NCBI GenBank assembly: GCA_025360015.1 | Contig: JANYCZ010000049.1 | Span: forward strand, 105,793 to 169,792 | From: Verrucomicrobiota bacterium | GTDB lineage: Bacteria; Verrucomicrobiota; Verrucomicrobiia; Verrucomicrobiales; Verrucomicrobiaceae | Length of the DNA: 64,000 bases | Direction: 5' to 3' | The notes under the pieces: model-generated | What the model was told of the DNA's origin: nothing | The model's database searches: none | The model's input: the letters and a program-made list of their open reading frames with translations, nothing else | Translations under genes and position numbers: made by a program | Shown: one piece after another, positions 16,442 to 34,060 of the stretch | Layout of the letters: the number at the start of each line of letters is the position of its first letter | How positions within the stretch are numbered: position 1 is the stretch's first letter

Positions 16442-16462
16442 CTCATCTTGCCGACACTTTCT

Positions 16463-17269
16463 ATGGGTAACTTTTTTCCGCGTTGGACCAACTGGCTGCC
16501 GCTCAAGCTCGCCATTGCCGTCGTGTTCATTGCCTTCGGCGTGAGTGTCGGCATCGCCTACTACTTCACACCGAAATACACTCGCGTGGGTTATGAACCC
16601 ACGCAGCCGGTGCCGTTCTCACACAAAATCCATGCGGGTCAGCTCGCGCTCGACTGCCGCTACTGCCACAGCTTTGTGGAGAGCTCCAGCCACTCGAACG
16701 TCCCCACCAACCAGACCTGCTTCAATTGCCACGGTCCGGGCAAAGGCAATATTCGCAGCAATTCCCCCAAGCTGGATCTCGTCATCAAAGCCAACGAAAC
16801 CGGCAAGTCCATCCCCTGGGTCAAAGTTCACAAGGCTCCTGATTACGTCTATTTCAATCACAGCGCCCATCTCAACCGCGGCATTTCCTGCGTCAATTGC
16901 CACGGCAAGATCACCGAGATGGAAGTCGTCCGCCACGACCAGCCGCAGTCCATGGGCTGGTGCCTTGACTGCCACCGCAATCCTGAGAAGAACCTCCGCC
17001 CCCTCGAGTTCGTCACCAAGCTGGACTACAAAGCCGGCGACCTGAAGCGTGCTGAGTTCTACAAGACCCTCCTCGACAAGAAGGTCCCGGCCGCTGAAAT
17101 CGCCACCACCATCGGCGGTGAAGGCACCAAGGCGGACAGCCTCGACCAGCTCGTTGCTCTCGCAGAGAAAACTTACGGTAAAGACGTGACCCAGACTGAA
17201 GTGGGCGCTCAGATCAAGAAGCACTGGCAGATTCAGCCGCCGGAATCCTGCACCGCCTGCCACCGCTAA
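16463..17269 (+). CDS. actA: Alternative complex III subunit A, pentaheme cytochrome c
   Basis: Membrane-anchored multiheme cytochrome of the quinol:acceptor oxidoreductase ACIII, passing electrons from the complex to a terminal oxidase. In 268 residues it has one N-terminal membrane helix (LPLKLAIAVVFIAFGVSVGIAYYF, residues about 8-31; quoted as one helix) and five CxxCH heme motifs: CRYCH, CFNCH, CVNCH, CLDCH and CTACH. The ATG at 16463 is preferred over the open frame at 16379, because the palindrome at 16422-16441 would otherwise fall in the coding region and the N-terminus then fits the family. First gene of the respiratory train. Confidence 0.94.
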   Translation: MGNFFPRWTNWLPLKLAIAVVFIAFGVSVGIAYYFTPKYTRVGYEPTQPVPFSHKIHAGQLALDCRYCHSFVESSSHSNVPTNQTCFNCHGPGKGNIRSNSPKLDLVIKANETGKSIPWVKVHKAPDYVYFNHSAHLNRGISCVNCHGKITEMEVVRHDQPQSMGWCLDCHRNPEKNLRPLEFVTKLDYKAGDLKRAEFYKTLLDKKVPAAEIATTIGGEGTKADSLDQLVALAEKTYGKDVTQTEVGAQIKKHWQIQPPESCTACHR

Positions 17270-17292
17270 CACGCCGCCCCTTTTTCTGACAC

Positions 17293-20200
17293 ATGAAAAA
17301 AATTTGGAAACATCCTGAGGAGCCGCAAAACGCTAAGCGCTACTGGCGCAGTGTCGCCGAGCTGGATCGTCGCGAAGATTTCTTGAAAAATCTGGGCCGT
17401 GAATTCCCGGGTGGAGACACCCTGGACGAAGGCGAGCGTGAAAACAGCCGTCGTGAATTCTTGAAGATCATGGGTGCCAGCGTGGGCATGATGGGTCTGG
17501 CAAGCTGCCGCCGTCCGCTCATCAACATTCTCCCCTACACCCAGCACGTCGAATGGATGGTGCCGGGCAAGTCCCTGCTGTACGCCACCACCATGCCGCA
17601 AAACGGCGGTGCTGTGCCGCTCGTCGTCACCACGCATGAGGGGCGTCCGACCCATCTTTCCGGCAATCCGCTGCACCCCTTGGGTGGCGGAGTCGGCAGT
17701 TTTGCCCAGGCTTCCGTGCTTGATCTCTATGATCCTGAGCGCTCCCAGAAGCCCATGGGCGCTGGCAAGGAACTCACCTGGCCCAAGGCCAACGATCTTC
17801 TCACAGAAGTCGTCGCTGAAACGAAAAAATCCTCCGGTGCCAGCCTTGGCATCGTCATGGGCGGCTCGTCCTCTCCGACCTACCAGCGTCTGCTGGGGGA
17901 AGTGAAAGCCGCTTTCCCTCAGGTCAAACTGTTCCAATACGAAGCCGTCGGTGGCGAAGGCCAGGCCGCTGCCAACAAGGCCGTGCTCGGCACCGGTGTG
18001 AAGCCCTTCGTGAAGCTCAGCTCCGCGATGCGCATCCTCTCCTTGGACTGCGACTTCCTCGGTGTGGACCCCGTCTCTGGCGAGCCCATCGCCGCTTTCA
18101 CCGCGCATCGTGCGAAGGATAAGGCGACGGCGGACATGAACCGTCTCTACGTCCTGGAAAACCGTTACACGCTGACCGGCGGCATGGCCGATCATCGCAA
18201 GCCCCTCGCGGCAAGTCTCATTCCAGTGGCTGCGGCTTTGATCGCTGCTCAGCTTGGCGACACCTCCGCTCAGGCCTTGGCCGCTACCGCGCCCGCCGCT
18301 CTCAAAGACTGGATCGCACCCGCCGTGCGTGATTTGATCGACAACAAAGGCAAGGCAGTCGTCCTCGCCGGTTCCCGCTACGGCGCGGAAGTGCATGCAC
18401 TGGTCGCTTCGATCAACAATGCCCTCGGTGCTTACGGTTCCACCATTGATTTGCTGCAGGCTCCTGCCTCCCCTGAACTTGGCACTTTCGCCGATCTGCA
18501 GGCCGCCGTTGCCGGCGGTCAGTTGAAGACCCTCCTCTCGCTGACTCCTGCCAGCCTGTACTATGACGCTCCGGATGCCACGGCGCTGGCCAAGCTTGTC
18601 ACGGACAAAGGCGTGAAGCTCGTTCACGTCGGCATGCATAAGAACATCACGGCACTTCAGGCCGCATTGCACATTCCAGCCGCTCATTACCTCGAAGTCT
18701 GGGGAGACGTGCGTGCCGCAGATGGCACCTACTCGATCATCCAGCCGATGATCGCTCCTTTGTACGACGGTGCCAGCCGTGTGGAAATCCTGCTCGCTCT
18801 GCTTGGTCGCAAAAAGCTCGGCCCTGCCGCAGCTGCTGCGCCTGCCGCCGCCGGTGCCGCACCCGCCGCTCCTGCTGCCCCCGCCGAAGACGCCGCCCAC
18901 ACCGCTGTGCGCGACACCTTCGCCGCTCTGGCTGGCAGCCTCGACGAATCGAAATGGAATTTCACCCTGCGTGACGGCTTCCTCAAAGGTTCCGCCTACG
19001 CCAAGGCCGCCGGCGCACCGAATGTCGCCGCTGTCGCTGGTTTCGTGGCCAAAGCCGCCCCTGCCGTGGCTCCCACGGACGACGCGCTCGAAGTCGTCCT
19101 CGTCGCTGACTCCAGCGTCTATGATGGCCGCTACATCAACAACGCCTGGTTGCAGGAAGCGCCAGATCCGGTGACGAAACTCACCTGGGAAAATGCGGCA
19201 TGGATCGGCTCCTACACCTTCCGTCGCCTCGGTCTCAAAGAAGGCCAGCATGTCAAGATCACCGTCGGTGACACTTTGATCGAAATCCCGGCCATCGAAG
19301 CGCCGGGGCATGTCTCGAACTCCATTACCCTGCCTCTGGGCTACGGTCAGAGTGACGTTGGCATGGTCGGCAGTGGTCGCGGTGTGAACGCTTACGCCCT
19401 GCGCAAGCAGCCCGGCTCGTTCGTCCTTGGCGGTGCCAAGATCGAAGTGCTTCCCACCATCGCTGAACTCGCGATCACGCAGGAGCACAACACGATGGAA
19501 GGCCGCGCGCTGTATCGTGAAGGCACGCTCGACACCTTCAACAAGGACGTCGCTTTTGCCCAGAAGACCGGCATGGACGGGCACATCCCGGAAAACATTT
19601 CCCTCTACAAGGGCCAGGTCGGGGTCAAATCCGACGAGAACCCTGCCGGCTTCGACTACGAGACGCAGCACCAGTGGGGCATGACGATCGATCTCAGCAA
19701 GTGCCTCGGTTGCACGGCTTGCATCATCGCCTGCCAGAGCGAAAACAACATTGCCGTCGTCGGCAAGGACCAGGTCCGCAAAGGCCGTGTGATGCAGTGG
19801 ATCCGCATGGACCGCTACTTTGCCGTGCCAAAGTGGGGCAAGAACGAAGTCGAACAGGAAAGCACCTGGGCCGAAGACAACGCCACGCCCGAGCAGCTGG
19901 AAAACGCTGAAATGGTGCAGCAGCCTGTGGCCTGCCAGCAGTGTGAATCCGCCCCGTGTGAAACCGTCTGCCCCGTGAACGCCACCGTTCACACCCCGGA
20001 AGGTCTCAACGCGATGGCCTACAACCGCTGCATCGGCACGCGCTACTGCGCCAACAACTGCCCTTACACCGCCCGCCGCTTCAACTGGTTCGACTACAAC
20101 AAGCGCAATCCGTTGATCGACACCACCGTGCTCGGCATGAAAGTCGGCAATCTTTACGCCGGCCCTCTGGGTGAAAAGCGCGAGGACGAAAGCCTCCGCC

Positions 20201-20571
20201 TTCAGCGCAACCCGAACGTCACCGTCCGCATGCGCGGGGTCATCGAGAAGTGTACCTACTGCGTCCAGCGCCTTGAATCCGCCAAGATCCTGCAGAAGCA
20301 GGTGCAGCGCGACTCCAAGGACTTCCGTGTGCCGACCGACACCGTCAAAACCGCCTGCCAGCAGTCCTGCTCGGCCGAGGCCATCATCTTCGGCGATCTG
20401 GGCGATCCTAACGCTGCGGTGACCAAATCGAAGGCATCGCCACGCGACTATCAGTTGCTCAAATACATCGGTACCCGCCCACGCACGAGCTACCTCGCCC
20501 GTCTGCGCAATCCGAACAAGAACATGCCCGGTGCGGAAAACATCGCCGTGTGGAGCAACAACCAATTCTAA
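17293..20571 (+). CDS. actB: Alternative complex III subunit B, molybdopterin-like and Fe-S fusion protein
   Basis: A 1092-residue periplasmic subunit that fuses a molybdopterin-oxidoreductase-like domain with a ferredoxin-like domain, as in other ACIII complexes. The Tat signal SRREFLKIMG is near residue 52 and is followed by a possible lipobox GLASC. The C-terminal part carries the cluster motifs CLGCTACIIAC, CQQCESAPCETVCP, CIGTRYCANNCP and CTYC with a later CQQSC, enough for up to four Fe-S clusters. Residues about 511-535 form an Ala/Pro-rich linker, an unusual low-complexity insertion inside the large domain. It lies 23 bases after actA. Confidence 0.95.
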   Translation: MKKIWKHPEEPQNAKRYWRSVAELDRREDFLKNLGREFPGGDTLDEGERENSRREFLKIMGASVGMMGLASCRRPLINILPYTQHVEWMVPGKSLLYATTMPQNGGAVPLVVTTHEGRPTHLSGNPLHPLGGGVGSFAQASVLDLYDPERSQKPMGAGKELTWPKANDLLTEVVAETKKSSGASLGIVMGGSSSPTYQRLLGEVKAAFPQVKLFQYEAVGGEGQAAANKAVLGTGVKPFVKLSSAMRILSLDCDFLGVDPVSGEPIAAFTAHRAKDKATADMNRLYVLENRYTLTGGMADHRKPLAASLIPVAAALIAAQLGDTSAQALAATAPAALKDWIAPAVRDLIDNKGKAVVLAGSRYGAEVHALVASINNALGAYGSTIDLLQAPASPELGTFADLQAAVAGGQLKTLLSLTPASLYYDAPDATALAKLVTDKGVKLVHVGMHKNITALQAALHIPAAHYLEVWGDVRAADGTYSIIQPMIAPLYDGASRVEILLALLGRKKLGPAAAAAPAAAGAAPAAPAAPAEDAAHTAVRDTFAALAGSLDESKWNFTLRDGFLKGSAYAKAAGAPNVAAVAGFVAKAAPAVAPTDDALEVVLVADSSVYDGRYINNAWLQEAPDPVTKLTWENAAWIGSYTFRRLGLKEGQHVKITVGDTLIEIPAIEAPGHVSNSITLPLGYGQSDVGMVGSGRGVNAYALRKQPGSFVLGGAKIEVLPTIAELAITQEHNTMEGRALYREGTLDTFNKDVAFAQKTGMDGHIPENISLYKGQVGVKSDENPAGFDYETQHQWGMTIDLSKCLGCTACIIACQSENNIAVVGKDQVRKGRVMQWIRMDRYFAVPKWGKNEVEQESTWAEDNATPEQLENAEMVQQPVACQQCESAPCETVCPVNATVHTPEGLNAMAYNRCIGTRYCANNCPYTARRFNWFDYNKRNPLIDTTVLGMKVGNLYAGPLGEKREDESLRLQRNPNVTVRMRGVIEKCTYCVQRLESAKILQKQVQRDSKDFRVPTDTVKTACQQSCSAEAIIFGDLGDPNAAVTKSKASPRDYQLLKYIGTRPRTSYLARLRNPNKNMPGAENIAVWSNNQF

Positions 20572-20580
20572 ACCGGACAC

Positions 20581-22044
20581 ATGGACGCCTCCGCTACAGC
20601 AACCAACACACCACGCATTCTCGCCCGCGAGCCGCTGGTGTTGAACAACCGCTCCTATTCTTGGATCACCAACCGCATCTGCGGCATCGTGGAAAACAAG
20701 CAGCCCGCTCTCTGGTGGGTCCTGTTTGTCCCTTCCGTGCTGCTCACAGGGCTGATGGTCTTCTGCTTCACCTACCTCATTTCCACCGGCGTCGGTGTCT
20801 GGGGTCAGAAGCAGCCGGTCGCCTGGGCTTGGGACATCACCAATTTCGTGTTCTGGATCGGTATCGGCCACGCTGGCACGCTCATTTCCGCCATCTTGTT
20901 CCTCACCCGCCAGAAGTGGCGTACGTCGGTGAACCGCGCTGCGGAAGCCATGACGATCTTCGCCGTGATGTGCGCCGGTCTCTTCCCGGCCTTCCACGTC
21001 GGCCGTGTGTGGATGGTGTGGTTCCTCGCTCCGATCCCGAACGCCAACGCCATCTGGCAGAACTTCAAGTCCCCCCTGCTCTGGGACGTCTTCGCCGTCT
21101 CGACCTACTTCAGCGTTTCCGCCGTCTTCTGGTTCCTGGGACTCGTGCCCGACCTTGCCACGCTGCGTGACCGCTGCCGCCCGGGCTTGAAGAAATTCCT
21201 CTACGGCCTGTTTGCCCTCGGCTGGCGCGGTGGCAACCGCCACTGGAGCCACTATGAGACCGCCTACCTGCTCCTGGCCGCTCTCTCCACTCCGCTGGTG
21301 CTCTCCGTGCACTCCGTCGTGTCCTTCGACTTCGCCACTTCTGTCGTTCCTGGCTGGCACACCACCATCTTCCCGCCCTACTTCGTGGCCGGCGCTATCT
21401 TCGGTGGTTTCGCCATGGTGCTGACCCTCATGCTTCCTGTGCGCCGCATCTACGGCCTGGATGACCTCATCACGGCCAAGCACGTCGATAACATGGCCAA
21501 GATCATCCTGCTCACGGGCACGATCGTCGGTTACGCCTACTGCATGGAGCTCTTCGTGGCCTACTACAGCGCCAATCCGTATGAAGCCGCTGCCTTCACC
21601 CTCCGCGGCCTGACCGGTCCTTCCACCTGGGCTTACTACTGGATGTTTAGCTGCAACGTGTTTGCCCCGCAGCTCTTCTGGAGCCGCTGGTGCCGCCACA
21701 ATATCTGGGTCGTCATGATCGTCTGCATGTTCGTGAACGCCGGCATGTGGTTCGAGCGCTACGTCATCATCGCCACCACGCTGGAGCGTCTCATGGTGCC
21801 GGGCTCCTGGCGCGTCTATGAGGCCACCTGGGTCGATAAGTACACCTTCCTCGGCACCTTCGGCTTCTTCATGATGCTCTTCCTTTTGTTCCTGCGCTTC
21901 CTGCCAGTCATCGCCATCGGCGAAGTCAAAGGCGTCTGCGCCCAGTCGAACCCGCATCAGGACGACCACGCTGAGCCTGGCATCCAGGAGGAAGACCTCA
22001 TGGACTATCCCGACCGTCACGTCGCCAAACCCGTTGCCGCCTAA
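20581..22044 (+). CDS. actC: Alternative complex III subunit C, NrfD-like quinol-binding membrane protein
   Basis: A 487-residue polytopic membrane protein of the NrfD/PsrC family with about ten hydrophobic segments; in ACIII this subunit and its paralogue ActF form the membrane core, and ActC holds the quinol site. Family motifs include [31 protein letters not shown] and [16 protein letters not shown]. It starts 9 bases after actB, and its C-terminal tail is charged and cytoplasmic. ActF (23392-24699) is its distant paralogue. Confidence 0.94.
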
Positions 22045-22065
22045 CTTTATAACTGCACCCCGACT

Positions 22066-22665
22066 GTGAGCACCACCCTCAAACGAGTCCACGGCTACCT
22101 CGCTGAATTTGACAGCGTGAAGGACCTCTATCATGCCGCCGAGCATGTGCGCGATGCTGGTTACCAGCGCTGGGACGTGCATTCGCCGTTCCCGATTCAC
22201 GGCATGGATGACGCGATGGGCAACCCGCGCTCCAAGCTGCCCATGCTTGTCTTCTGCGGTGGCATCACCGGCACCACGGTCGCTTTCACCTTGGAAACGA
22301 TCACGCAGACCAATTTCTGGAGCCACATCGGCCTCGGTTTCCTGCAAAAGATCGTCGAAACCTATCCGACCGTCGTTCAGGGCAAGCCCACCGACATCTG
22401 GACCCTGCCTGCCTTCTTCCCGGTGATGTTTGAGCTGACGATTCTCTTCAGCGCCTTCACCACCCTGTTCGGTCTGCTGGCCCTCATCGGCCTGCCACGC
22501 TGGAACCACCCGCTGTTTGTCTCCAAGAACTTCAGCAAGTTCTCAGACGACGGTTTCTTCGTCTGCATCGAAGCTCGCGACCCCAAATTCTCCCAGGAAG
22601 GCACCAAAAGCCTTCTCGAAAAAGCCGGCGGCAAGAACATCGAACTCGTGGAGGACGAAATCTAA
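22066..22665 (+). CDS. actD: Alternative complex III subunit D (DUF3341)
   Basis: A 199-residue membrane subunit of the DUF3341 family: a small ferredoxin-like N-terminal domain (HGYLAEFDSVKDLYHAAEHV), then two membrane helices linked by a short loop, with WDVHSPFPIHGMDDAMG between. The start is GTG at 22066, since no suitable ATG precedes the conserved N-terminus. It sits 21 bases after actC and 18 before actE, in the canonical ACIII order. Confidence 0.93.
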   Translation: MSTTLKRVHGYLAEFDSVKDLYHAAEHVRDAGYQRWDVHSPFPIHGMDDAMGNPRSKLPMLVFCGGITGTTVAFTLETITQTNFWSHIGLGFLQKIVETYPTVVQGKPTDIWTLPAFFPVMFELTILFSAFTTLFGLLALIGLPRWNHPLFVSKNFSKFSDDGFFVCIEARDPKFSQEGTKSLLEKAGGKNIELVEDEI

Positions 22666-22683
22666 GCCTCGCTTACCCGCACC

Positions 22684-23367
22684 ATGAAGTACTTCTTTCT
22701 CAGCTATATTTTTGTCATCGCGATCTTCGTGAGCGCGTTCGGTTTCCGTGGCAGCAAATCCGAGTTGCCTCCGCTCGAAATCATCCCGGACATGGATCAG
22801 CAGGCCAAGATCAAATACCAGGCCGCCAGCGAATTCTTCGCCGATGGCCGTGGTGCCCGCATGCCCGTCAAAGGCACGCTGCCCATGGGTTTTGAAGTTC
22901 CCGCCAAACCTGCGGCGGAAGGTGCCAAGCCCGGCCGCGTTGCCTTCACCAGCGGTCTCGGTTACTATGACACCGGTAAAGTCGGTGACTTATACGGCGA
23001 CGGTCTGCCGACCGAGATCACCAGCGAGCCGGCCGTCTTCAACGACGACTTCATCAAGCGGGGTGAGCAGCGCTACAACATCAACTGCGCCATCTGCCAC
23101 GGTGCCTCCGGCAATGGCAAGGGCGTGACCTCCAAATACGGCATCCTCACCGCCTTCAACTTTCAGCAGCCCGGCAACACGGACCCTGCCAATGCCGCCG
23201 CCTACCGCGCGGATGGTGCCATCTTTGATGTCATCACCAACGGCAAAGGCCTCATGGGCAGCTACGGCGGCAACATCACCTTGCGCGACCGCTGGGCCAT
23301 CGTGGCCTACATCCGCTCCCTGCAAATCGCCGCTAAAGAGTCTGGCGCCACCCTTCCCCTCCAGTAA
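22684..23367 (+). CDS. actE: Alternative complex III subunit E, monoheme cytochrome c
   Basis: A 227-residue exported cytochrome c with one heme motif, CAICHGASGNGKG, near residue 135, and a Met-containing C-terminal segment (GKGLMGSYGGNI) that can supply the distal ligand. The hydrophobic N-terminus (YFFLSYIFVIAIFVSAFGF) serves as membrane anchor or signal. In ACIII, ActE docks near ActA and can deliver electrons to the oxidase. It lies between actD and actF. Confidence 0.93.
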   Translation: MKYFFLSYIFVIAIFVSAFGFRGSKSELPPLEIIPDMDQQAKIKYQAASEFFADGRGARMPVKGTLPMGFEVPAKPAAEGAKPGRVAFTSGLGYYDTGKVGDLYGDGLPTEITSEPAVFNDDFIKRGEQRYNINCAICHGASGNGKGVTSKYGILTAFNFQQPGNTDPANAAAYRADGAIFDVITNGKGLMGSYGGNITLRDRWAIVAYIRSLQIAAKESGATLPLQ

Positions 23368-23391
23368 CGGCACGATCACGCGAATCCCGGC

Positions 23392-24699
23392 ATGAGTCAC
23401 CACGTCACCTTCAACGATCTGCCCCAGGGCGGAGAAAAATTCGAACCAGCCAAGGGCGGCAAGCTCATTGGCGCATTCGGCCTTTTCGGCCTGCTCGGCC
23501 TCTTAGCATCGGCCTTCTTCTTCTTTAAGAACACGGACACCTTCGCCTATTCCTGGCTGTTCGCCGTCTTCTTCTGCTTCACCTTCGTGGCCGGCGGCTG
23601 CTTCTGGATCCTGCTCCACAGCGCCTCCAACTCGAGCTGGGGCGTCGTCGTGCGCCGCATCTGGGAAAACATGGCCAACATGGTCGTCCCCCTGGCCATC
23701 CTCGCCTCCCCGCTGCTCATTCCCGCAGTGAATGGGCCGCTGTATGAGTGGATGGGTCATCATCGCACGGCTGCAGAACACGCCGCTCATGCCGATCATC
23801 CCACCACGGTGAAAGAGGCGCTGCATCACATGGCTGCGGACAATCCGCACCTCCACGTGCTGGTCACCAAGTTCGGTTACATGAACCTGAACGCCTGGTA
23901 CATCCGCTTTGGCCTCTATTTCCTCGTCCTCTGGTTCATCGCCCGCACGCTGCGCGGCAAGTCTCTCCAACAGGAACAGGATGGCGACATCAAGCACACC
24001 ATCAAAGCGCGCCAGTTCTCCTGCATCGTGCTGCTGCCCTACGCTCTCGCGGTCACCTTCGCGGCCTATGACTGGCTCGTAGGCCTCGACTACAACTGGT
24101 TCTCCACCATGTGGGGCGTGTACATCTTCGCAGGTTGCGCCTGGGCCTCCATGGCGGCGTCGATCCTGATCGTCATCTGGCTGCGCAGCCTGGGCTACCT
24201 CCAGAAGGTGGTCACGGACGAGCACTACCATCTCATGGGCAAGCTGCTCTTCGCCTTCACCGTCTTCTGGGCCTACATCTCCTTCAGCCAGTATTTCTTG
24301 ATCTGGTACGCCAACATCACGGAAGAAACCCGATTCTACCTCACCCGTAACACGGAAGGCTGGCGTGAAGTGTCCATCTTCATTCTCCTCGGCCACTTCA
24401 TCGTCCCCTTCCTCTTCCTGCTCTCGCAGCAGAAAAAGAAGAACACCACCTATATCGGCCTCGGCTGCGTCTGGATCCTCTTCATGCATGTCGTGGACAT
24501 GTACTGGAATGTCATCCCTGAGCGCGGTCCGTCCTTGGGCGTTGGCGTCGTGGTTCCCTATGCCTGGGTGCAGGATATCGCCGCCTTCTGCGCCGTCTTC
24601 GGTGCCATGGGCTTCCTTTACCTCCGTGGCCTGGCCAAATACAGCCTGTATCCATGGCGTGACCCGCGCCTCCTTGAGTCCGTGAACGTCGTCAACTGA
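23392..24699 (+). CDS. actF: Alternative complex III subunit F, NrfD-like membrane protein
   Basis: A 435-residue polytopic membrane protein, paralogous to ActC, that completes the membrane core of ACIII. About ten hydrophobic segments are visible, with FSQYFLIWYANITEETRFY and LGHFIVPFLFLLSQQKK typical of the subunit. A His-rich loop (HHRTAAEHAAHADH) lies near residue 120. It ends 14 bases before the Pro/Ala-repeat protein gene. Confidence 0.93.
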   Translation: MSHHVTFNDLPQGGEKFEPAKGGKLIGAFGLFGLLGLLASAFFFFKNTDTFAYSWLFAVFFCFTFVAGGCFWILLHSASNSSWGVVVRRIWENMANMVVPLAILASPLLIPAVNGPLYEWMGHHRTAAEHAAHADHPTTVKEALHHMAADNPHLHVLVTKFGYMNLNAWYIRFGLYFLVLWFIARTLRGKSLQQEQDGDIKHTIKARQFSCIVLLPYALAVTFAAYDWLVGLDYNWFSTMWGVYIFAGCAWASMAASILIVIWLRSLGYLQKVVTDEHYHLMGKLLFAFTVFWAYISFSQYFLIWYANITEETRFYLTRNTEGWREVSIFILLGHFIVPFLFLLSQQKKKNTTYIGLGCVWILFMHVVDMYWNVIPERGPSLGVGVVVPYAWVQDIAAFCAVFGAMGFLYLRGLAKYSLYPWRDPRLLESVNVVN

Positions 24700-25331: not shown

Positions 25332-26819
25332 ATGCAGACCACTCCCGCCATCCCTGACACAGACCTTCAGGCCGACAACCTTCGCCGCGCGGCGATCGAT
25401 AAGTCGGTGAAAGGTCCTGTTCTCTTCCTCTTCACCAACGGGGCCTTCTGGCTCATGCTTTCCACGCTGCTCGGCGTCCTCTCCGCCATCAAGCTGGTGG
25501 AGCCTGAGTTCCTCGGAAACTCCCAGTACCTCACCTACGGCCGCCTGCAGCCGGCGCATATCAATGCCCTCGTCTATGGCTGGGGCATCCAGGCTGCTCT
25601 GGGCGTGATGCTGTGGATCATGGCCCGCCGCTCCGGTCAGGTGCTCAAGGGGGGCCAGACCCTCCTCATCACCGCTGGCGTGTTTTGGAACATCACCATC
25701 ACCTTCGGCATTCTCGCCGTCCTCATGGGCAAGAGCACCTCGATCGAGTGGCTGGAGATGCCCGGGTTCGTCTGGCCGGTGCTGCTGGGCTGCTTCCTCT
25801 GCTACGCCTGGCCCATCGCCCGCATGTTTGGCCGCGCTTTCCGCCCTGAAGGCTTCATGGTCAGCACTTGGTACATTCTCGGTGCCTGCTTCTGGTTCCC
25901 CTGGATCTTCGTCACCGCCAACGTCGCCCTGCACTGCCTGCCAGGCCTGGGTGCCATCGGTGCCGGCATTGATGCCTGGTACATCCACGGGGTGATCCTG
26001 CTGTTCTTCGTCCCCGTCGGTGTCGGCTCGGCTTATTACTTCATTCCCAAGATCACCGGTCAGCCCATTGCCTCCTCGCAGCTCGCCTCCGCTGGCTTCT
26101 GGAGTCTCGCCATCCTCGGTGGCTGGACGGGCATGCAGAAATACATGGGCGGTCCGCTCCCAGCCTGGATGTCCTCCGTCGGTGCCTGCGCCGGTGTGCT
26201 GCTGCTCATCCCAGTGGGTCTTGTCGGTCTCAATCATCACCTCACCACCATCGGCAAGCACAGCGCCGTGGCCACCAGCCCCACCCTGCGCTTCATCTTT
26301 TTCGGAGCGATGTTCTACCCGGTCTCCGGCCTGGTTCTCGCCTTGAACTCCGCCTTCTGGACCGGTGCCAATGTGCAGTTCACCCAGTCCTGGTACGCCT
26401 TCCAGACCGTCAGCGTTTACGGCTTCTTCAGCATGTGCGTCTTCGGTGCCATCTACTACATCGTGCCGCGTCTCTCCGGCTGTGAATGGCTCAGCGTCCG
26501 CCTCATCCGCAATCACTTCTGGTTCTCCGTCTATGGCGTCGGCACCATCGTCGTCATGAGCCTCGTCGCCGGCTGGCAGCAAGGCGTGGACCTGAATGAT
26601 CCCGAGCATTGGGATCAGACCTTCATGAATCACGTCGTCAATTCCCGCCCCTACGTCGTCTCCCGCGCAGTCGCCTGGACGCTCATCAGCTTCTCGAACG
26701 CCATGTTCCTCCTTCACCTTCTGCTCATGGTCGCAGGTCTGGGCCGCCGCAGTTCGGCACCCACCCTGCTCGGACACGACCACGACGATCACGCTCTTCC
26801 CCACGAAGCCCACGCATGA
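25332..26819 (+). CDS. CcoN-like (cbb3-type oxidase subunit I) protein lacking active-site ligands
   Basis: A 495-residue polytopic membrane protein of the heme-copper oxidase fold, cbb3 branch: YGRLQPAHINAL (His76, matching a low-spin heme ligand), DAWYIHGVILLFFVPVG (His219, matching the first CuB ligand) and FGAIYYIVPRLSG. At the place where CcoN normally has Tyr, then His-His (LYIWAGPHHLHY), this protein has Gly263, Gln269 and Lys270. Where CcoN has HVH (active-site heme and low-spin heme ligands) it has Phe357-Gln-Thr359. Four of six metal-ligand His and the cross-linked Tyr are thus missing, so oxygen reduction is unlikely. A His-rich C-terminus follows. ccoO overlaps its stop by ATGA. 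Confidence 0.85.
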   Translation: MQTTPAIPDTDLQADNLRRAAIDKSVKGPVLFLFTNGAFWLMLSTLLGVLSAIKLVEPEFLGNSQYLTYGRLQPAHINALVYGWGIQAALGVMLWIMARRSGQVLKGGQTLLITAGVFWNITITFGILAVLMGKSTSIEWLEMPGFVWPVLLGCFLCYAWPIARMFGRAFRPEGFMVSTWYILGACFWFPWIFVTANVALHCLPGLGAIGAGIDAWYIHGVILLFFVPVGVGSAYYFIPKITGQPIASSQLASAGFWSLAILGGWTGMQKYMGGPLPAWMSSVGACAGVLLLIPVGLVGLNHHLTTIGKHSAVATSPTLRFIFFGAMFYPVSGLVLALNSAFWTGANVQFTQSWYAFQTVSVYGFFSMCVFGAIYYIVPRLSGCEWLSVRLIRNHFWFSVYGVGTIVVMSLVAGWQQGVDLNDPEHWDQTFMNHVVNSRPYVVSRAVAWTLISFSNAMFLLHLLLMVAGLGRRSSAPTLLGHDHDDHALPHEAHA

Positions 26820-27496
26820 CGAACTTCCGCACCTTCATTCTCCGTCTCGCCGCCGCCTTCGGGCTGCCTTGGCTGTGCCTCATCGTCCTCCCGGCGATCC
26901 ACTACCAGCAGCTCACCCCTGTCGCCTATGACAAGGACAAGGATGGCTTGGACGGCTATTTCCCACAGGCCCCCATCAATGGCCAGGGCCAGCTCGTTTA
27001 CATCAGCGAAGGCTGCAACCAGTGCCACACCCAGATGATCCGCCCCATCCAGCTCGGCCTCGACGGCTGGTACAAAGGCTGGGGCCAGGATCAGGAAGCC
27101 CGCCCGGCCACTCCCGCCCGCCCAAACGTGCTGCGTGACTACCTCGGCGAGCGTTACGCTCTGCTCGGCATTCAGCGCATCGGCCCTGACCTCGCCAATT
27201 TCGGCTGGCGTGCTCCCAGCGCTACCGCGCTCTATCAGCATCTCTATTCGCCACGTTCCGTCCATGACTGGAGCACGATGCCCGCCTACACCGGCCTCTT
27301 CAAACTGCAGAAAATCCAGGGCCCCATCTCCGAGGGTGCCGTGAAGCTGCCGAAGAAGTTTGCCCCGCCTGCCGGTTATGAGGTCGTTCCGACGCAAGAA
27401 GCCAAGCAGCTTGTTGAGTACCTTCTCTCTCTGAAAAAGGATTATCCCGTCCCCGGACAAGGTGCAGCCGTCGCTGCCTCTCCCGCCAAAAAGTAG
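26816..27496 (+). CDS. ccoO: CcoO-like monoheme cytochrome c subunit (cbb3 subunit II)
   Basis: A 226-residue membrane-anchored cytochrome c. It has one N-terminal helix (about residues 5-27), the heme motif EGCNQCHTQMIRP near residue 66, then RIGPDLANFGWR and the Met-ligand region WSTMPAYTGLF, all standard for CcoO. The ATG at 26816 overlaps the stop of the CcoN-like gene; the longer open frame starts inside that gene and is not real. The heme motif is intact although the partner CcoN-like protein lacks its catalytic ligands. The Ala/Lys-rich C-terminal tail is short. Confidence 0.9.
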   Translation: MTNFRTFILRLAAAFGLPWLCLIVLPAIHYQQLTPVAYDKDKDGLDGYFPQAPINGQGQLVYISEGCNQCHTQMIRPIQLGLDGWYKGWGQDQEARPATPARPNVLRDYLGERYALLGIQRIGPDLANFGWRAPSATALYQHLYSPRSVHDWSTMPAYTGLFKLQKIQGPISEGAVKLPKKFAPPAGYEVVPTQEAKQLVEYLLSLKKDYPVPGQGAAVAASPAKK

Positions 27497-27522
27497 CCCC
27501 CTCTCGCGACCCGCACGCCCCC

Positions 27523-28254
27523 ATGAGCGCACCCGCCCATCCTGACAGCACCGATCTCGACCGCCTTCACTCCGCCGTGAAGCGTGAGAAGGTAGATCTT
27601 GCTCCCGAAAGCCAGCCCGCACCCCTGTGGGCGATGTTCTTGCTCATGTTCGTCGCCATCATCGCGGGTGCCCAGATAGGCGGCCCGCTGCTCGGTGGCT
27701 GGAGCTTCGATATCAGCAATCCCTTTGCCGTGGCCAATGGTGGCGGCGATCCCCGCCCCGGTGGAGCTGGAGCAGGCGGTACGCTTGACCCATTCGCACT
27801 TGCCATGAAAAAAGGTGCCAGCGGCTACGCGGTTTGCGGTGGTTGCCATCAGGGTAACGGCGGCGGTCTTCCCGGCCAGTTTCCACCTTTGGCGAAGTCC
27901 GAGTTCGTCCTCGGCGGCACGGAGCGTCTGATCCGCATCACCCAGCACGGCCTCGTCGGTCCGGTCACGGTCAACGGTCAGAATTTCAACACGGCCGGTG
28001 GCATGCAGCCCTTTGGTGGGACGATGTCCTCCCAAGATCTCGCCAACGTGCTGACCTTCGTCCGCAACTCCTGGGGCAACGAAGCCACCATGGTCACCAA
28101 AGACATGGTGCAGAAGGTGCGCGATGAAGAAAAACGTGCCTCGCAATGGACAGCCGCCGAGCTGGAGCCTTTCGCCAAGAAGAATGTTCCCGGTGACATC
28201 CCCGCCGGTCCTGGCGCGACTGCTGCCGCTGCACCCGCACCTGCCGCCAAGTAA
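27523..28254 (+). CDS. Membrane-anchored monoheme cytochrome c
   Basis: A 243-residue protein with one N-terminal helix (PLWAMFLLMFVAIIAGAQIG, residues about 29-48), a Gly-rich stretch and a cytochrome c domain with AVCGGCHQGNGGG near residue 106. GGMQPFGGTMSSQDL offers the distal Met. It occupies the position of CcoP but has one heme, not two, and lacks CcoP similarity. The Ala/Pro-rich C-terminal tail resembles those of its neighbours. It probably moves electrons between ACIII and an oxidase, which is inference from position. Confidence 0.85.
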   Translation: MSAPAHPDSTDLDRLHSAVKREKVDLAPESQPAPLWAMFLLMFVAIIAGAQIGGPLLGGWSFDISNPFAVANGGGDPRPGGAGAGGTLDPFALAMKKGASGYAVCGGCHQGNGGGLPGQFPPLAKSEFVLGGTERLIRITQHGLVGPVTVNGQNFNTAGGMQPFGGTMSSQDLANVLTFVRNSWGNEATMVTKDMVQKVRDEEKRASQWTAAELEPFAKKNVPGDIPAGPGATAAAAPAPAAK

Positions 28255-29091: not shown

Positions 29092-31053
29092 ATGAGCGCC
29101 GCCGCCACCACTCACGATCACGCCCAGGATCATTCGCATGACGACCATGCGCACGGGCACCATGAACAGAGCTTCATCTGGAAGTACATCTTCTCCAGTG
29201 ATCACAAAACCATTGGCATCCAGTACGGCATCTCGGGCATGCTCTTCCTGCTCTTTGGTTTCTTCCTCATGCTGCTCATGCGCTGGAGCATCGCCTATCC
29301 GGGCGTGCCAGTGCCGGCGCTCGACCTGATTCGTCAACTTCCGGTCATCAGCGGTATTTTTGACAGCATGTTCGGCCGCTGGTTGAACGCCGACGGTTCG
29401 CTGAACGGTGAACTCTACAACATGCTTGGCGCCATGCACGGCACCATCATGGTGTTCTTCGGCATTGTGCCGCTGGGTTTCGCCGCTTTCGGCAACTTCG
29501 TCATGCCACTGCAGATCGGCACCATCGACATGGCCTTCCCCCGCCTGAACATGGCCAGCTACTGGCTCTTCTTCATCAGCTGCGTGCTGATGATGACCAG
29601 CTTCTTCGTCGGCACCGGCCCGGTGCAGACCGGCTGGACGATGTATTCGCCGCTCGCTTCGACGATGAACATCGGGGTGACGAGTGTCTGGGGCCACGGC
29701 CATACCTGGTGGCTCTCCGCCATGGTGTTCAACATCTCCGCCTCCCTCCTCGGTTCCGTCAATTTCATCGCCACCCTCATCAACCTGCGCACCAAGGGCA
29801 TGGCATGGATGAAGATGCCCTTCTTCTGCTGGGCGATGTTTGTGATCGGCTTCCTCCTGCTGCTGGCCTTCCCGCCGTTGGAAGTGGCCTCCATCCTGCA
29901 GCTTTCCGACCGTCTGTTCGGCTCCTCGTTCTACCTGCCAACCGGCCTGATGGAAGGTGGCAAGCACCTCGACATCTCCGGTGGTGGCAGCCCGCTGCTC
30001 TACCAGCATCTGTTCTGGTTCCTCGCCCATCCTGAGGTGTACGTGCTCATCCTGCCAGCGTTCGCCATCCTGACGGAAGTCATTCCGTGCAATGCGCGCC
30101 GTCCGCTGTGGGGGTACAAGTCCATGGTGTACTCCGTGCTCACCCTCGGTTTCCTCAGCTTCCTCGTCTGGGCGCATCACATGTACCTCACCGGCATGGG
30201 CACCATGATGTCCACCTACTTCCAGATCACCACGGTGCTCATCTCCGTGCCGTCCGTGGTGCTGCTGACCTGCTTGATGGTTTCGCTCTGGGGTGGTTCC
30301 ATCCGCTTCAATACGCAGATGCTCTTCGCGTCCGCCTTCCTGCCGATGTTTGGCATCGGTGGTCTCACCGGTCTGCCTCTGGCATTCTCGTTCATCGACC
30401 TTGCGATGCATGACACGTATTACGTGATCGGCCACTTCCACTACGTGGTCGCCCCTGGAACGATCTTCGCCATCTTCGCCGGCATCTACCACTGGTTCCC
30501 GAAAGTCACCGGTCGTTTCATGAACGACAAACTGGGCAAACTGCACTTCTGGCCTTCGCTCATCGGCATGAATCTCGTCTTTGCCCCCATGTTCATCCAG
30601 GGCATGGCCGGCTTCCACCGCCGCTGGTATGATGGCGGCAAGTACTTTGAGAACACCAACGCCATGACCCACTGGTCCACGACGCTGACCCACAAGATCG
30701 GTGCCTTCTTTGGCTTCAATATCCCGGACAACATGCTCTCCCTGAACATCGTCATGTCCGTGGGCGCCTTCATCCTCGCGCTTGGTCAGGTGCCCTTCAT
30801 CTTCAACTTCTGGTTCAGCATCAAAGGCGGCAAAAAAGTCACATGCGACAATCCTTGGGACGCCACCACGCTGGACTGGGCCACGCCTACGCCTCCTCCG
30901 CACGGCAACTTCCTGTTTGATCCGGTCGCCCATCGTGGCCCTTACGAGTACAGCGTTCCCGGCCACAACACCGATTTCTATCCGCAGTGGGAGTCCGAAC
31001 CCGGCAAACCCGACCTCAAAGCTGCCGCCGCCAACGCACCAGTGCATCACTAA
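29092..31053 (+). CDS. ctaD: aa3-type cytochrome c oxidase subunit I
   Basis: Catalytic proton-pumping subunit, 653 residues. All metal ligands are visible: low-spin heme His in GAMHGTIMVFF, CuB His and cross-linked Tyr in FLAHPEVYVLIL, the CuB pair in VWAHHMYLTGM, and the HxH of YYVIGHFHYVVAP for heme a3 and heme a. The His-rich N-terminus (about residues 8-26) and an extended loop between helices 1 and 2 (residues about 65-108) are extra. It contrasts with the ligand-poor CcoN-like protein upstream and is the only complete heme-copper oxidase in the train. Confidence 0.97.
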   Translation: MSAAATTHDHAQDHSHDDHAHGHHEQSFIWKYIFSSDHKTIGIQYGISGMLFLLFGFFLMLLMRWSIAYPGVPVPALDLIRQLPVISGIFDSMFGRWLNADGSLNGELYNMLGAMHGTIMVFFGIVPLGFAAFGNFVMPLQIGTIDMAFPRLNMASYWLFFISCVLMMTSFFVGTGPVQTGWTMYSPLASTMNIGVTSVWGHGHTWWLSAMVFNISASLLGSVNFIATLINLRTKGMAWMKMPFFCWAMFVIGFLLLLAFPPLEVASILQLSDRLFGSSFYLPTGLMEGGKHLDISGGGSPLLYQHLFWFLAHPEVYVLILPAFAILTEVIPCNARRPLWGYKSMVYSVLTLGFLSFLVWAHHMYLTGMGTMMSTYFQITTVLISVPSVVLLTCLMVSLWGGSIRFNTQMLFASAFLPMFGIGGLTGLPLAFSFIDLAMHDTYYVIGHFHYVVAPGTIFAIFAGIYHWFPKVTGRFMNDKLGKLHFWPSLIGMNLVFAPMFIQGMAGFHRRWYDGGKYFENTNAMTHWSTTLTHKIGAFFGFNIPDNMLSLNIVMSVGAFILALGQVPFIFNFWFSIKGGKKVTCDNPWDATTLDWATPTPPPHGNFLFDPVAHRGPYEYSVPGHNTDFYPQWESEPGKPDLKAAAANAPVHH

Positions 31054-31089: not shown

Positions 31090-32439
31090 ATGGACATCCC
31101 CTACACAGTTCACGCCCGTCCAGACACCGGTCTTTACAATGCGAAGATTGGCATCTGGCTCTTCCTCGCCTCGGAAGTCATGCTCTTCGGCGGCTTGTTC
31201 TCCGCCTACATCTTCCTCCGCGTCGGTGCCGACTATCCCTGGCCGGTGCATGATTTGGATGTGACGCTTGGCTTCATCAACACCGTCGTCCTCATTGCCT
31301 CCTCCGTGACGGTGCTCATGGCTCTGGCCATGCTCAAGCTGCGGAAGTTTGGCTGGTACCGCATCAACATGGCTCTCACGGTGCTTTGCGCCGGGGTCTT
31401 CATGTTCAACAAAACGCTCGAGTACAAGGCCAAGTTTGCCCACTACGCCGTGAAGCTCACGGACGGCACTCTGCTCACCGGCCATCTTCCCCACGGTTAT
31501 CAGGTGAAGTTTGATGGCGTGACGGAGCTCGCGCTCAATGTGCCTCTGAAGCACAGTGCTGTGACGGCAGATCCTGTCGGCTACGTCCTGCCCTTCATTG
31601 AAGGCACGGCCCCCAAGTTCAAAACCGAAGCCGGTCAGGAGATCACCTTGGATCATGCTTCGTTCGCGGCCCTCAGCGCTGAAGCAGTCAAAAAGGCCAA
31701 AGCGGAAAACAAAGGCACGGCCGCCATCAAGCTGGTTGCCACCGCGCCGATCAAGATCGCTGCAAAGCCTTCCGAGATTTTTGGCTACACCGAAACCACC
31801 ATCACCTTCCGTGACGGCACCACCGCCACCGGCAAGCTGGCCGATGACAAGATGACGCTCGAAGTCGATGGCGTCGATGCACGTGGCGTCGCGCAGTCCG
31901 AGAAGTCCCTCGCCTTTGACCACCGCTATCTGGGTGATGCCTGGCAGAAAGCCTTCGTGGACAACCGCGACCACCACATCACCAAGTTTGAGAAGGATTA
32001 TCCGACACGCGACAAAGCCCGCTCCGCCACGCTGCAGAAGGAGTCGCTCTTCTTCAAACTCAACTCCGCCGAGCCTCCTGCCGAAGGTGCATCCCATGGC
32101 GCTGCGCACGGTGCTGAAGCCCACGCTCCTGCCGAAGGCCATGGCGAGGCTCACGCCCACCACCCCACGGTGGTGCTGGAAAAGAAGGACTTCACCTTCT
32201 TCTCCAACTTCACGCCAAAGCTGAACACTTACTACGCCATCTACTTCACACTCACCGGCCTGCATGGTCTGCACGTGGTCGCCGGGGCCGGGGTGCTGTT
32301 CTACTTCCTGGTGTTTGACGGCAAGCGCCTGCGTCAGGACCCCGAGCATCTCGCGAATCGCGTCGAAGTCGGCGGCCTGTTCTGGCACTTCGTCGATCTC
32401 GTGTGGATCTTCCTCTTCCCTCTCCTTTACCTCCTCTAA
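31090..32439 (+). CDS. ctaE: Cytochrome c oxidase subunit III with a large hydrophilic insert
   Basis: A 449-residue protein; COX3 proteins of this type are usually about 200. The N-terminal part (residues 15-105) has three helices with KIGIWLFLASEVMLFGGLF, and the C-terminal part (about 376-449) has NTYYAIYFTLTGLHGLHVVAG and FWHFVDLVWIFLFPLLYLL, both standard. Between them lies a soluble insert of about 260 residues containing two DGT-x2-TG-x-L repeats (Asp125 and Asp242) and a His/Ala-rich linker (residues 334-359). The frame is unbroken. It starts 36 bases after ctaD. Confidence 0.93.
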   Translation: MDIPYTVHARPDTGLYNAKIGIWLFLASEVMLFGGLFSAYIFLRVGADYPWPVHDLDVTLGFINTVVLIASSVTVLMALAMLKLRKFGWYRINMALTVLCAGVFMFNKTLEYKAKFAHYAVKLTDGTLLTGHLPHGYQVKFDGVTELALNVPLKHSAVTADPVGYVLPFIEGTAPKFKTEAGQEITLDHASFAALSAEAVKKAKAENKGTAAIKLVATAPIKIAAKPSEIFGYTETTITFRDGTTATGKLADDKMTLEVDGVDARGVAQSEKSLAFDHRYLGDAWQKAFVDNRDHHITKFEKDYPTRDKARSATLQKESLFFKLNSAEPPAEGASHGAAHGAEAHAPAEGHGEAHAHHPTVVLEKKDFTFFSNFTPKLNTYYAIYFTLTGLHGLHVVAGAGVLFYFLVFDGKRLRQDPEHLANRVEVGGLFWHFVDLVWIFLFPLLYLL

Positions 32440-32460: not shown

Positions 32461-32802
32461 ATGGCTGACAACGTCGAAGAAATCCAAAAGTCGATCAAGT
32501 GGTACTTCATCATCGGAGGAGCGCTGATCGTCCTGAGCGGTGCCACCGTGGGACTCTCTTATGTGGAGCTCCCCACCCACAGCCTGAACATCCTCGTCGG
32601 CATGATTTTGGCGACGATCAAGGCCTCGATGGTGGCGCTGATCTTCATGCATCTCAGCCATGAGCGCAGCCTGATCTACAAGATCCTCGCCTTCACCGTG
32701 GCCTTCGCGATCGTGCTGTTCACACTCTTCATCCTCTCCCACGAAGATCCGCTCGAATTCAAAGGCTTCTACGCCCCTGTCGAAGACCAGCAGCCGCAGT
32801 AG
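32461..32802 (+). CDS. ctaF: Cytochrome c oxidase subunit IV-like protein
   Basis: A 113-residue membrane protein with three hydrophobic segments, starting at the ATG at 32461. The motif ILATIKASMVALIFMHLSHE is characteristic of the prokaryotic COX4/CyoD-type subunit, which stabilises the CuB site or assembly of the oxidase. It directly follows ctaE by 21 bases. The symbol is assigned by analogy with Bacillus caa3 oxidase. Confidence 0.88.
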   Translation: MADNVEEIQKSIKWYFIIGGALIVLSGATVGLSYVELPTHSLNILVGMILATIKASMVALIFMHLSHERSLIYKILAFTVAFAIVLFTLFILSHEDPLEFKGFYAPVEDQQPQ

Positions 32803-32825
32803 TCCTTCGTCCCGCCGCCCACGCC

Positions 32826-33029
32826 ATGTCGCTCAAGCACTTCCACGTCGTCTTTCTCGTCTTCGCCATTTTGTGCGATGCCGGGTTCTGGCTGTGGATG
32901 CAGTTTATGCCTGAAGACGCCGCCGCCGCCGGTGCCGCCCCCCTGAAAAACTACGCCGGTCTGCTCTGCGTGACCCTGCTGGTTTATGCGGCGTGGTACC
33001 TCGGCAAAAAAATGCGCACCATCATCTGA
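32826..33029 (+). CDS. Small two-helix membrane protein
   Basis: A 67-residue protein with two predicted membrane helices (about residues 8-27 and 44-60) separated by an Ala-rich loop and ending in basic residues (GKKMRTII). No family was recognised. It sits between ctaF and another small gene, with 23 and 3 base gaps and similar composition, so it is probably translated and part of the oxidase operon. A small accessory or assembly subunit is a reasonable guess, not more. Confidence 0.7.
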   Translation: MSLKHFHVVFLVFAILCDAGFWLWMQFMPEDAAAAGAAPLKNYAGLLCVTLLVYAAWYLGKKMRTII

Positions 33030-33032
33030 GCC

Positions 33033-33236
33033 ATGATTCCTGCACTTCCATCTTCCATTCTCGCCTGCGCCACCTGCATGGCTGACAAAGGCAGCCTTGT
33101 CGGTCAGGCCCAGGGCTGGGCCATTCTCTTCATGCTGGGCATGCTGGCGTTCATGTTCGCCTGCGCCGCCTGTTTCATTTATTCCTTTGTGCGCCGTCAG
33201 CGTGCGCATCAGGATCTCACCGCCGCTTCCGTCTGA
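33033..33236 (+). CDS. Small single-helix membrane protein with N-terminal CxxC
   Basis: A 67-residue protein: ILACATCMADKG near the N-terminus gives a Cys-x2-Cys pair, followed by one hydrophobic helix (about residues 28-52, with two further Cys) and a basic tail FVRRQRAHQD. No family was recognised. It lies 3 bases after the previous small gene and 11 before ctaC. The Cys pair close to an oxidase subunit II gene could hint at copper handling or redox assembly, which is speculation. Confidence 0.68.
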   Translation: MIPALPSSILACATCMADKGSLVGQAQGWAILFMLGMLAFMFACAACFIYSFVRRQRAHQDLTAASV

Positions 33237-33247
33237 ACCCCCTTTTT

Positions 33248-34060
33248 ATGCAACTTAAACTCGATTCTATCAATGTCTGGATGGGCCAGACCGCAAACGC
33301 CTCTGAACACGGCGGCCTTGTTGACCACATGCTGGGCTTTGTCCACTGGGTCATGGTCGTGCTGGGCGTGGGTTGGTCCATTTATCTTGCGATCGCCTTC
33401 TATCGTTTCCGGCAGAAGAAGACTGCCCGGGCCGATTACTATGGCTTCCGCGGCCATGCGACGACCCACATCGAGATCGGCGTGGTCATCGTGGAAGCCA
33501 TTCTCCTGCTCGGCTTCGCCTTCCCGCTCTGGTCCCGCCAGGCGGATGAGTACCCCACCTCCCCCGACACCATCCGCATGCGCGCTCTGGGCGAGAAGTT
33601 CCTTTGGAACTTCCAGTACCCCGGCAATGACATGATGCTCAGCACCTGGGATCTGCGGAATGTCGATGGCGCCACCAACACCACCGGCAAAGATCTGCAT
33701 GACCCCAACGGCAAGGACGACTTCGTCAATCCAGGTACGATGAAGCTGCCCGTGGGCCGCCCGGTCATCGTGGACGTCGCCAGCAAGGACGTGATTCACA
33801 ATCTCGCCCTCGTGCCAATGCGTGCGGCGCAGGATGCGACCCCTGGTGTGAAGAGCCACATGTGGTTCAAGCCGATCAAGGAAGGCAGCTGGGACATCAT
33901 CTGCGGTCAGCTTTGCGGCCCGGGCCACGCCCAGATGAAGGCCATCCTCGAAGTGGTGCCTGCCGCTGAATATGACGCCTGGGCCAAGGAGCAGTCCGCC
34001 TCTGCGAGCAAAAAGATCACAGACGCCGAGGCCGCTGCGCCGAAGCCTGCGGCTCACTAA
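33248..34060 (+). CDS. ctaC: Cytochrome c oxidase subunit II (CuA)
   Basis: A 270-residue subunit that takes electrons from cytochrome c through the dinuclear CuA centre. Two N-terminal helices (about residues 27-50 and 75-97) are followed by a cupredoxin domain with VIHNLALVPMRAAQ (first His) and CGQLCGPGHAQM (Cys, Cys, His, Met). There is no C-terminal heme c domain, so the enzyme is aa3 rather than caa3. Its place at the end of the cluster, after ctaD-ctaE-ctaF, is unusual. A perfect hairpin follows at 34088-34121. Confidence 0.95.
   Translation: MQLKLDSINVWMGQTANASEHGGLVDHMLGFVHWVMVVLGVGWSIYLAIAFYRFRQKKTARADYYGFRGHATTHIEIGVVIVEAILLLGFAFPLWSRQADEYPTSPDTIRMRALGEKFLWNFQYPGNDMMLSTWDLRNVDGATNTTGKDLHDPNGKDDFVNPGTMKLPVGRPVIVDVASKDVIHNLALVPMRAAQDATPGVKSHMWFKPIKEGSWDIICGQLCGPGHAQMKAILEVVPAAEYDAWAKEQSASASKKITDAEAAAPKPAAH

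Follow-up and report, generated by a model that had tools for sequence, protein, structure and literature searches.

A predicted periplasmic domain inserted into cytochrome c oxidase subunit III of a Verrucomicrobiota bacterium, encoded beside ACIII

What might a domain of about 260 residues be doing in the middle of subunit III of a cytochrome c oxidase, a protein at the core of aerobic respiration with a role that continues to be debated? The question is raised by a gene in a window of 64,000 nt from a Verrucomicrobiota bacterium (assembly GCA_025360015.1, contig JANYCZ010000049.1, positions 105,793–169,792, forward strand), which is the whole stretch of DNA analyzed here (Table 1). A preliminary description had proposed that a hydrophilic segment interrupts the COX3 helices between residues of about 116 and 375 (31435–32214 of the window), that this added beta domain might dock ACIII, a CcoO-like cytochrome or a cupredoxin, and that a His-rich linker near its end might bind metal. 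Our analysis presents an ordinary enzyme with an unusual part: subunit III has gained a predicted folded periplasmic domain, small forms of which persist in relatives, and its likely partner is the complex encoded next door. If this is true, the role of subunit III in ACIII supercomplexes becomes testable through a single domain.

Table 1. The subunit III gene, its parts and its neighbors, in window coordinates.
Feature	Coordinates	Strand	Basis
CoxC/COX3, cytochrome c oxidase subunit III with inserted domain, 449 aa	31090..32439	+	Pfam, AF2
TM helices 1–3 (residues 18–45, 58–83, 87–117)	31141..31440	+	AF2; K/R-rich stretch 80–92
Predicted periplasmic beta domain and linker, residues 114–371, 258 aa	31429..32202	+	Flank alignment, 94-row alignment
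First DGT beta unit, residues 118–152	31441..31545	+	Start matches small insert of other Verrucomicrobiota
Second DGT beta unit, residues 237–264, repeat of the first	31798..31881	+	hhalign, shuffle control
His-rich linker, residues 337–359	32098..32166	+	Disordered in models at 337–355, pLDDT <50
Closing strands of inserted domain, residues 360–373	32167..32208	+	Match end of small insert
TM helices 4–5 (residues 380–409, 418–448)	32221..32436	+	AF2; COX3 Pfam match 372–447
ACIII cluster: ActA 16379, ActB 17293, ActC 20581, ActD 22066, ActE 22684, ActF 23392	16379..24699	+	Family matches, first five
CcoN-like protein, 495 aa	25332..26819	+	TIGR00780 far under cut-off; alignment to solved CcoN; ligand columns
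CcoO-like (FixO) cytochrome 26816–27496; second c-type cytochrome 27523–28254	26816..28254	+	Pfam; CxxCH
CoxA, subunit I, aa3-type oxidase	29092..31053	+	TIGR02891 540.5 bits vs cut-off 670.75; PF00115 above cut-off
CoxD 32461–32802; CoxB 33248–34060 (CuA motif present)	32461..34060	+	NCBIfam; CuA residues

The description of an unbroken frame with a long insert was borne out: the frame is intact and open over its whole length, PF00510 matches the protein at 57.7 bits against a curated cut-off of 23.8, in two stretches that leave the middle unmatched, and alignment of the flanks delimits the 258-residue interruption. A search of the organism's own genome likewise returned the window gene, matched as two separated stretches, as the sole COX3. 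The full-length AlphaFold2 model has five long helices outside the insert, as in a 5-TM subunit III, with low confidence at residues 1–60 (block means of 41–68). Subunits III of this kind have 5 (or 7) TM helices, with conserved GLHGLHV and WHFVDxVW regions; H392, H395, W432, H433 and D436 are invariant in the 89 COX3 rows aligned, as are Y112, K115, H118, G131 and G248 in the insert or at its base. In comparative terms, the protein is like other 5-TM members of PF00510 in its five helices and in the Pfam matches to both of its halves, and differs from them in its P-side TM3–TM4 loop, which has 258 residues versus about four. That this loop is normally short, as had been stated, is confirmed by other phyla, where both flanks can be read in 49 loci and the loop has 4–6 residues in 33 of these; four loci with a flank missing or weak (L094, L104, L051 and L056) are left out of the loop count.

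On which side of the membrane does the insert lie? Lys and Arg are absent from the 12-residue TM1–TM2 loop, and number four each in residues 80–92 (TM2–TM3) and 410–424 (TM4–TM5). The insert shares its side with the Lys/Arg-free TM1–TM2 loop and is hence predicted to be periplasmic (P-side), a placement that agrees with the known topology of subunit III. AlphaFold2, run on a 94-row alignment of the insert, gave a beta-rich model with a mean pLDDT of 91.1 and a pTM of 0.82, in which the single segment with a pLDDT below 50 is the His-rich linker (insert residues 226–244, equivalent to COX3 337–355). In the full-length model (pLDDT 82.7, pTM 0.76) this beta domain follows helix 3 and precedes helix 4. 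The added beta domain that had been postulated is thus supported by an ordered, beta-rich prediction; with both Cys and CxxCH absent from the window insert, we regard it as a predicted folded, cofactor-free periplasmic beta domain.

This domain could not be assigned to a known family. Queried with the full-length model, Foldseek ranked solved COX3 chains first (probability up to 1.00, E 0.038); queried with the insert alone, it gave zero matches at E 0.001. In a structural comparison with VIA-align, the insert reached Z ≥2 with 2 of 996 chains, led by chain b of the yeast pre-B complex, part of its U1 snRNP (Z 4.5, rmsd 2.8, 75 residues), which we take to be an Sm protein. The insert resembles the small beta barrels of the Sm/LSM or SH3-like kind in having a DG hairpin followed by a third strand, but a Z of 4.5 falls in the range of common arrangements and is too weak to name the fold. 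The LSM family is absent among the 25 listed of the 28 Pfam families that the 94 members match at E 0.1, and no family is common to more than three of the 94. The search of the insert alone, which had been suggested as a check, therefore yielded no matching Pfam family or confident PDB fold: a search of PDB sequences produced no E-value under 0.59 for the profile, or under 0.65 for the sequence by itself, and none of the solved COX3 chains matches the insert by sequence. Moreover, there was no second copy in the organism's own genome at E 1 and no plasmid match at E 0.001. The lack of a shared Pfam family, PDB sequence, second genomic copy or plasmid match led us to reject the recent gain of a known domain. 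Pfam matches to Tox-REase-2 (E 0.016–0.08, below the cut-off) were set aside.

Within the insert, two similar DGT units had been noted, and both are indeed present, DGTLLTGHL at Asp125 and DGTTATGKL at Asp242, each then followed by a DGV. When compared with hhalign, the first unit matches the second with a probability of 87.8–94.8; their profile–profile score is 37.4, compared with 15.9 for the reversed profile and with 100 column shuffles that never exceeded 17.7. The prediction also lays both out alike: a hairpin spans the DGT turn and is accompanied by a third strand. Judged from these profiles, the two units are a true internal repeat, beyond what chance would produce.

The His-rich stretch is likewise present, with seven His in residues 334–359, and varies among relatives. 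Counting at least six His per 30-residue window, the tail of the insert is His-rich in 53 of the 94 sequences and some other part of the insert in 10 of the 94; His-richness of the tail is absent in 41 of the 94, including 11 of the 12 rows of family f2. These His residues might be read as a linker that binds or delivers copper, which would make the domain a metal-loading aid for the oxidase. Such a reading is difficult to reconcile with the loss of His-richness from so many tails, with the predicted disorder of the stretch, and with a window insert that lacks Cys and belongs to a family whose sole invariant His is H118, at the membrane base; we consider it very improbable. The suggestion of metal binding by this segment is hence poorly supported, and the models favor a disordered, inconstant tether over a conserved metal site.

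Turning to the wider family, the window protein is matched in 48 of the 56 relatives drawn and in 158 of the 190 genomes of the order; among the 20 misses listed of the 32 in the order, 17 fall in one genus (g2). Loops of at least 200 residues of the window's kind, in a single frame, were found in 111 rows. The 111 include three entries for the organism's own genome and two for each of at least four contigs; thinning at 95% identity left 94. In comparisons with seven genomes of the same genus, dN/dS is 0.037–0.145 for the insert and 0.013–0.074 for the helices; by this measure the insert is under purifying selection. An assembly error or frameshift was rejected, given 111 rows in one frame and low dN/dS. 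The first of these, which the preliminary description had itself raised as a possible explanation, is thus very unlikely.

The origin of the insert can be partly reconstructed from its smaller relatives. In Verrucomicrobiota loci without ccoN beside coxC the TM3–TM4 loop has 64–122 residues (209 in L063), and in loci with ccoN, in the first set collected, it has 229–419. The first 25 columns of an alignment of 15 small inserts match the start of the first DGT unit (hhalign probability 95.7) and the last 16 match the closing strands of the large insert (83.7), with no match to the second DGT unit (1.1). Since the two ends match and the second unit does not, the small domain looks like an outer shell, with the remainder added inside it. 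Two trees were built, a quick one from 101 rows and a careful one from the 73 that remained once 13 rows (long-branched or distant) and 15 of the 43 with a large insert had been dropped. In the careful tree, which covers the helices alone, the large form falls in one clade (support 100/92), which nests in an insert-bearing clade (99/89); the latter includes L065, titled Pirellulaceae, but not L067, whose small insert is planctomycete and which groups with insert-free rows. By these phylogenies, the large form arose once. The label Verrucomicrobiales for its clade derives from record titles, and our claim concerns the clade of COX3 proteins; the titles give Akkermansia muciniphila for the small-form L041, L045, L049 and L087 and Verrucomicrobium sp. 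for L053, and the COX3 of all five fall outside the large clade. We accordingly envisage a domain of 64–122 residues that would first have been present in the COX3 of Verrucomicrobiota, followed by one enlargement in the ancestor of the large-insert clade, in which growth inside the small domain would have included the second DGT unit.

The same loop has been filled in other ways. Seven COX3 of Planctomycetota (L099, L101, L103, L107, L108, L112 and L082) have inserts of 136–213 residues that are unlike the Verrucomicrobiota domain and form one clade (support 99 in the quick tree), and further unlike inserts are found in L267, L104 and L097. Hence, the TM3–TM4 loop of COX3 is an insertion hot spot. 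L267 (genome G488) belongs to a different COX3 subfamily, with a 461-aa frame and, by eye, an Ala/Glu/His-rich insert of more than 200 residues in this P-side loop. Repeated and separate filling is what one would expect if the loop were merely tolerant and the insert, having no specific partner, were a folded ornament that protects or stabilizes the oxidase. However, separate inserts could equally serve docking, and the domain combines high predicted order and invariant residues with purifying selection; further, every large-clade row in the tree retains it. On balance, we hold an insert without a partner to be unlikely.

If the insert has a partner, the gene neighborhood offers the candidates. 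The order in the window is actA–actF, a Pro/Ala-rich protein, CcoN-like, CcoO-like, a c-type cytochrome, a cupredoxin-like protein, CoxA, CoxC, CoxD, two small ORFs, CoxB and CtaA-like, the ACIII cluster lying upstream of the cox genes on the same strand. ActD alone is named as an ACIII subunit by its own model (PF11821) and ActF has no Pfam match; the names of ActA, ActB, ActC, ActE, ActF and the CtaA-like protein are presumed from position. The Pro/Ala-rich protein between ActF and the CcoN-like gene (24714–25328) is of low complexity and has no Pfam match, and the two ORFs between CoxD and CoxB (within 32826–33236) are of 67 residues each, with no NCBIfam match. The cupredoxin-like gene was detected in just 9 of the 66 large-insert loci, so that docking of the cupredoxin, the third of the partners that had been put forward, is not supported.

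Precedents for a contact between ACIII and subunit III exist. According to an excerpt of one account, contacts in the ACIII–aa3 supercomplex of Flavobacterium johnsoniae run through a 5-TM subunit III, and in the actinobacterial bcc–aa3 supercomplex subunit III (CtaE) mediates the contact with complex III (PMC8361435). The window, which encodes a candidate for such an assembly, shares with the ACIII–aa3/caa3 supercomplexes of F. johnsoniae and Rhodothermus marinus the adjacency of act and cox and the 5-TM subunit III; it differs from them in the CcoN/CcoO module that lies between, in the paucity of metal ligands in its CcoN and in the large domain. The actinobacterial system has bcc rather than ACIII, and its solved subunit III chains have 203–206 residues as against 449. 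Closer to the window, though from another family of Verrucomicrobiota, the isolate Verruconatronum alginivorum has the same order of ActABCDEF followed by Cox I–IV, as given in part of its description (PMC13274419), a portion of text with no mention of a subunit III insert or of CcoN between the clusters. The titles and abstract openings listed by literature searches likewise contain no description of the insert.

How faithfully do these genes keep company with the insert? In the first set, ccoN is accompanied by a separately encoded coxC in 66 loci, all of which carry the large form, and the order act, ccoN, coxA, coxC on one strand is kept in all 61 large-insert loci that reach the act genes; in the 66, at least four contigs are counted twice (L034/L125, L035/L134, L037/L141 and L059/L149), as judged by equal contig or loop length. 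The same arrangement is seen in Rubritalea marina DSM 17716 (L043), which has actD–actF, ccoN, ccoO and an insert of 362 residues. In other phyla, ACIII without CcoN is accompanied by loops of 4–32 residues in eight of eight loci; hence, the pairing of ACIII with aa3 needs no insert. At the level of genomes, ActD was found for 15 of 17 loci with the small or L063 form (L097 left out) and for 11 of the 26 tested among the 33 insert-free loci, whose loops have 4–6 residues. As three of the seven insert-free loci outside that comparison (L095, L105 and L109) adjoin ACIII, the insert-free count with ACIII rises to at least 14 of 33. The small form is also seen without an act gene in the flank (up to 8 kb). 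Of the 17 small- or L063-form genomes, 12 encode a CcoN-like match (E ≤1e-50) that shares the contig and strand of ActD and lies no more than about 4.1 kb away; none of the 11 insert-free genomes with ActD does, their best match being at 3.5e-28. The threshold of 1e-50 was chosen after the list was seen.

The preliminary description had asked if homologues beside a CcoN-like gene also carry the insert. This holds for every locus of the large-insert clade and fails as a strict rule, which we dropped because six loci break it. Two of them (L220 and L221) have act, cco and cox together with loops of 75 and 73 residues, two (L193 and L209) combine act–cco with another type of CoxC whose loops have 5 and 3 residues, L190 is an act–cco locus with a CoxC on the opposite strand and a loop of 0, and the last is L053. 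Thirty-eight act–cco loci were collected from other orders, so the act–cco module is wider than the insert; five of them hold CoxC, with loops of 0, 3, 5, 73 and 75 residues, and a close COX3 (E <1e-30), in each case with a small insert, is encoded in five of the 38 genomes.

The CcoN-like protein is itself peculiar. In the window copy H76 and H219 are kept, and the other ligand columns hold Q269, K270, F357 and T359, i.e., four of the six heme/CuB His are absent; its score against TIGR00780 is 128.1 bits, below the cut-off of 583.15. Of the large-insert loci, 65 have a CcoN frame of at least 400 residues, and none of these 65 has the full ligand set, at most three of the six His being retained; the CxxCH heme motif of the CcoO-like protein is kept in 67 of 67 rows. 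Among the 38 act–cco loci of other orders 14 keep six His and the Tyr and 24 do not, and among small-form genomes the intact set was found in 3 of 12. Judging from these ligand columns, an ACIII-linked C-type oxidase subunit seems to have lost its catalytic center more than once, its cytochrome partner being kept, and the CcoN-like protein is apparently an inactivated oxidase subunit retained in a respiratory operon.

These observations invite the alternative that the insert chiefly docks the CcoN/CcoO/cytochrome c module, with the metal-less CcoN as a scaffold and CcoO or the next cytochrome as the route to CuA. CcoN, CcoO and the second cytochrome are present in all 66 large-insert loci and lie between act and coxA in 61; the constant loss of CcoN ligands beside a retained CcoO heme motif, as well as the CcoN-like matches near ActD in small- or L063-form genomes, are in keeping with it. 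Against this, other orders hold the module without this type of COX3, in L209 the CoxC next to a ligand-less CcoN has a loop of 3 residues, and intact CcoN are encoded in some small-form genomes.

A comparison of divergence bears on both candidates. Across 39 loci with all 12 partner genes at full length (four second-copy loci were left out), the common signal was removed and the pairwise tree distances obtained for the insert were set against the corresponding values for 13 other proteins or protein parts. The residual divergence of the insert follows that of ActE (0.64), ActA (0.48), ActC (0.39), CcoN (0.30), the c-type cytochrome (0.24) and CcoO (0.21). It does not follow CoxA (−0.03), CoxD (−0.04), CoxB (−0.12), ActB (−0.12), the protein's own helices (−0.26), ActF (−0.28) or ActD (−0.39). 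ActE ranked first in 278 of 300 half-samples and among the top three in all 300; permutation gave p 0.001 for ActE, ActA, ActC and CcoN, a lenient figure from a crude test, and fast-evolving periplasmic proteins may resemble each other for reasons other than contact. The values for CcoN, CcoO and the cytochrome lend the module some support but lie below those of ActE and ActA. We regard docking chiefly to this module as rather improbable. As for the partners originally suggested, the CcoO-like cytochrome retains its signal of 0.21, which is weaker than those of ActE, ActA and ActC. ACIII is favored indirectly, by the joined operon, by ActD in the genome and by the match in divergence to these three subunits, and is made less secure by the failure of the insert to follow ActB, ActD and ActF.

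We thus favor the reading of the insert as a putative docking domain that holds the aa3 oxidase to ACIII, with a probability of about 45%. In terms of mechanism, the domain would clamp the periplasmic exit side of ACIII, at ActA/ActE and over ActC, and would perhaps also bind the CcoN/CcoO module. The CuA site of the aa3 oxidase would thereby stay within reach of the ACIII cytochromes and the supercomplex would be permanent, with the His-rich linker acting as a flexible tether back to the membrane. The six loci that break the rule count against docking to ACIII; further, since the large insert lies in the same single clade as the joined operon and the ligand-less CcoN, their association may be one historical event. 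The docking domain could be extended to a picture in which ACIII, a metal-poor pseudo-cbb3 subunit (a dead membrane scaffold) with its c-type cytochromes, and aa3 form a permanent megacomplex clamped by the beta domain of subunit III, the scaffold and the clamp having arisen together when cox joined the act–cco operon; we think this fuller version unlikely to hold as a whole.

Two further loci are of note for their oxidase genes. L053 encodes CoxA and CoxC in one 931-aa frame, with a 79-aa small insert; act genes and a CcoN that keeps every ligand lie upstream of it. The organism's own genome also encodes a third COX1-family protein (G000:C22:124727-126016, L182) in an 811-aa frame, possibly a quinol-type NO reductase, as we guess from its length.
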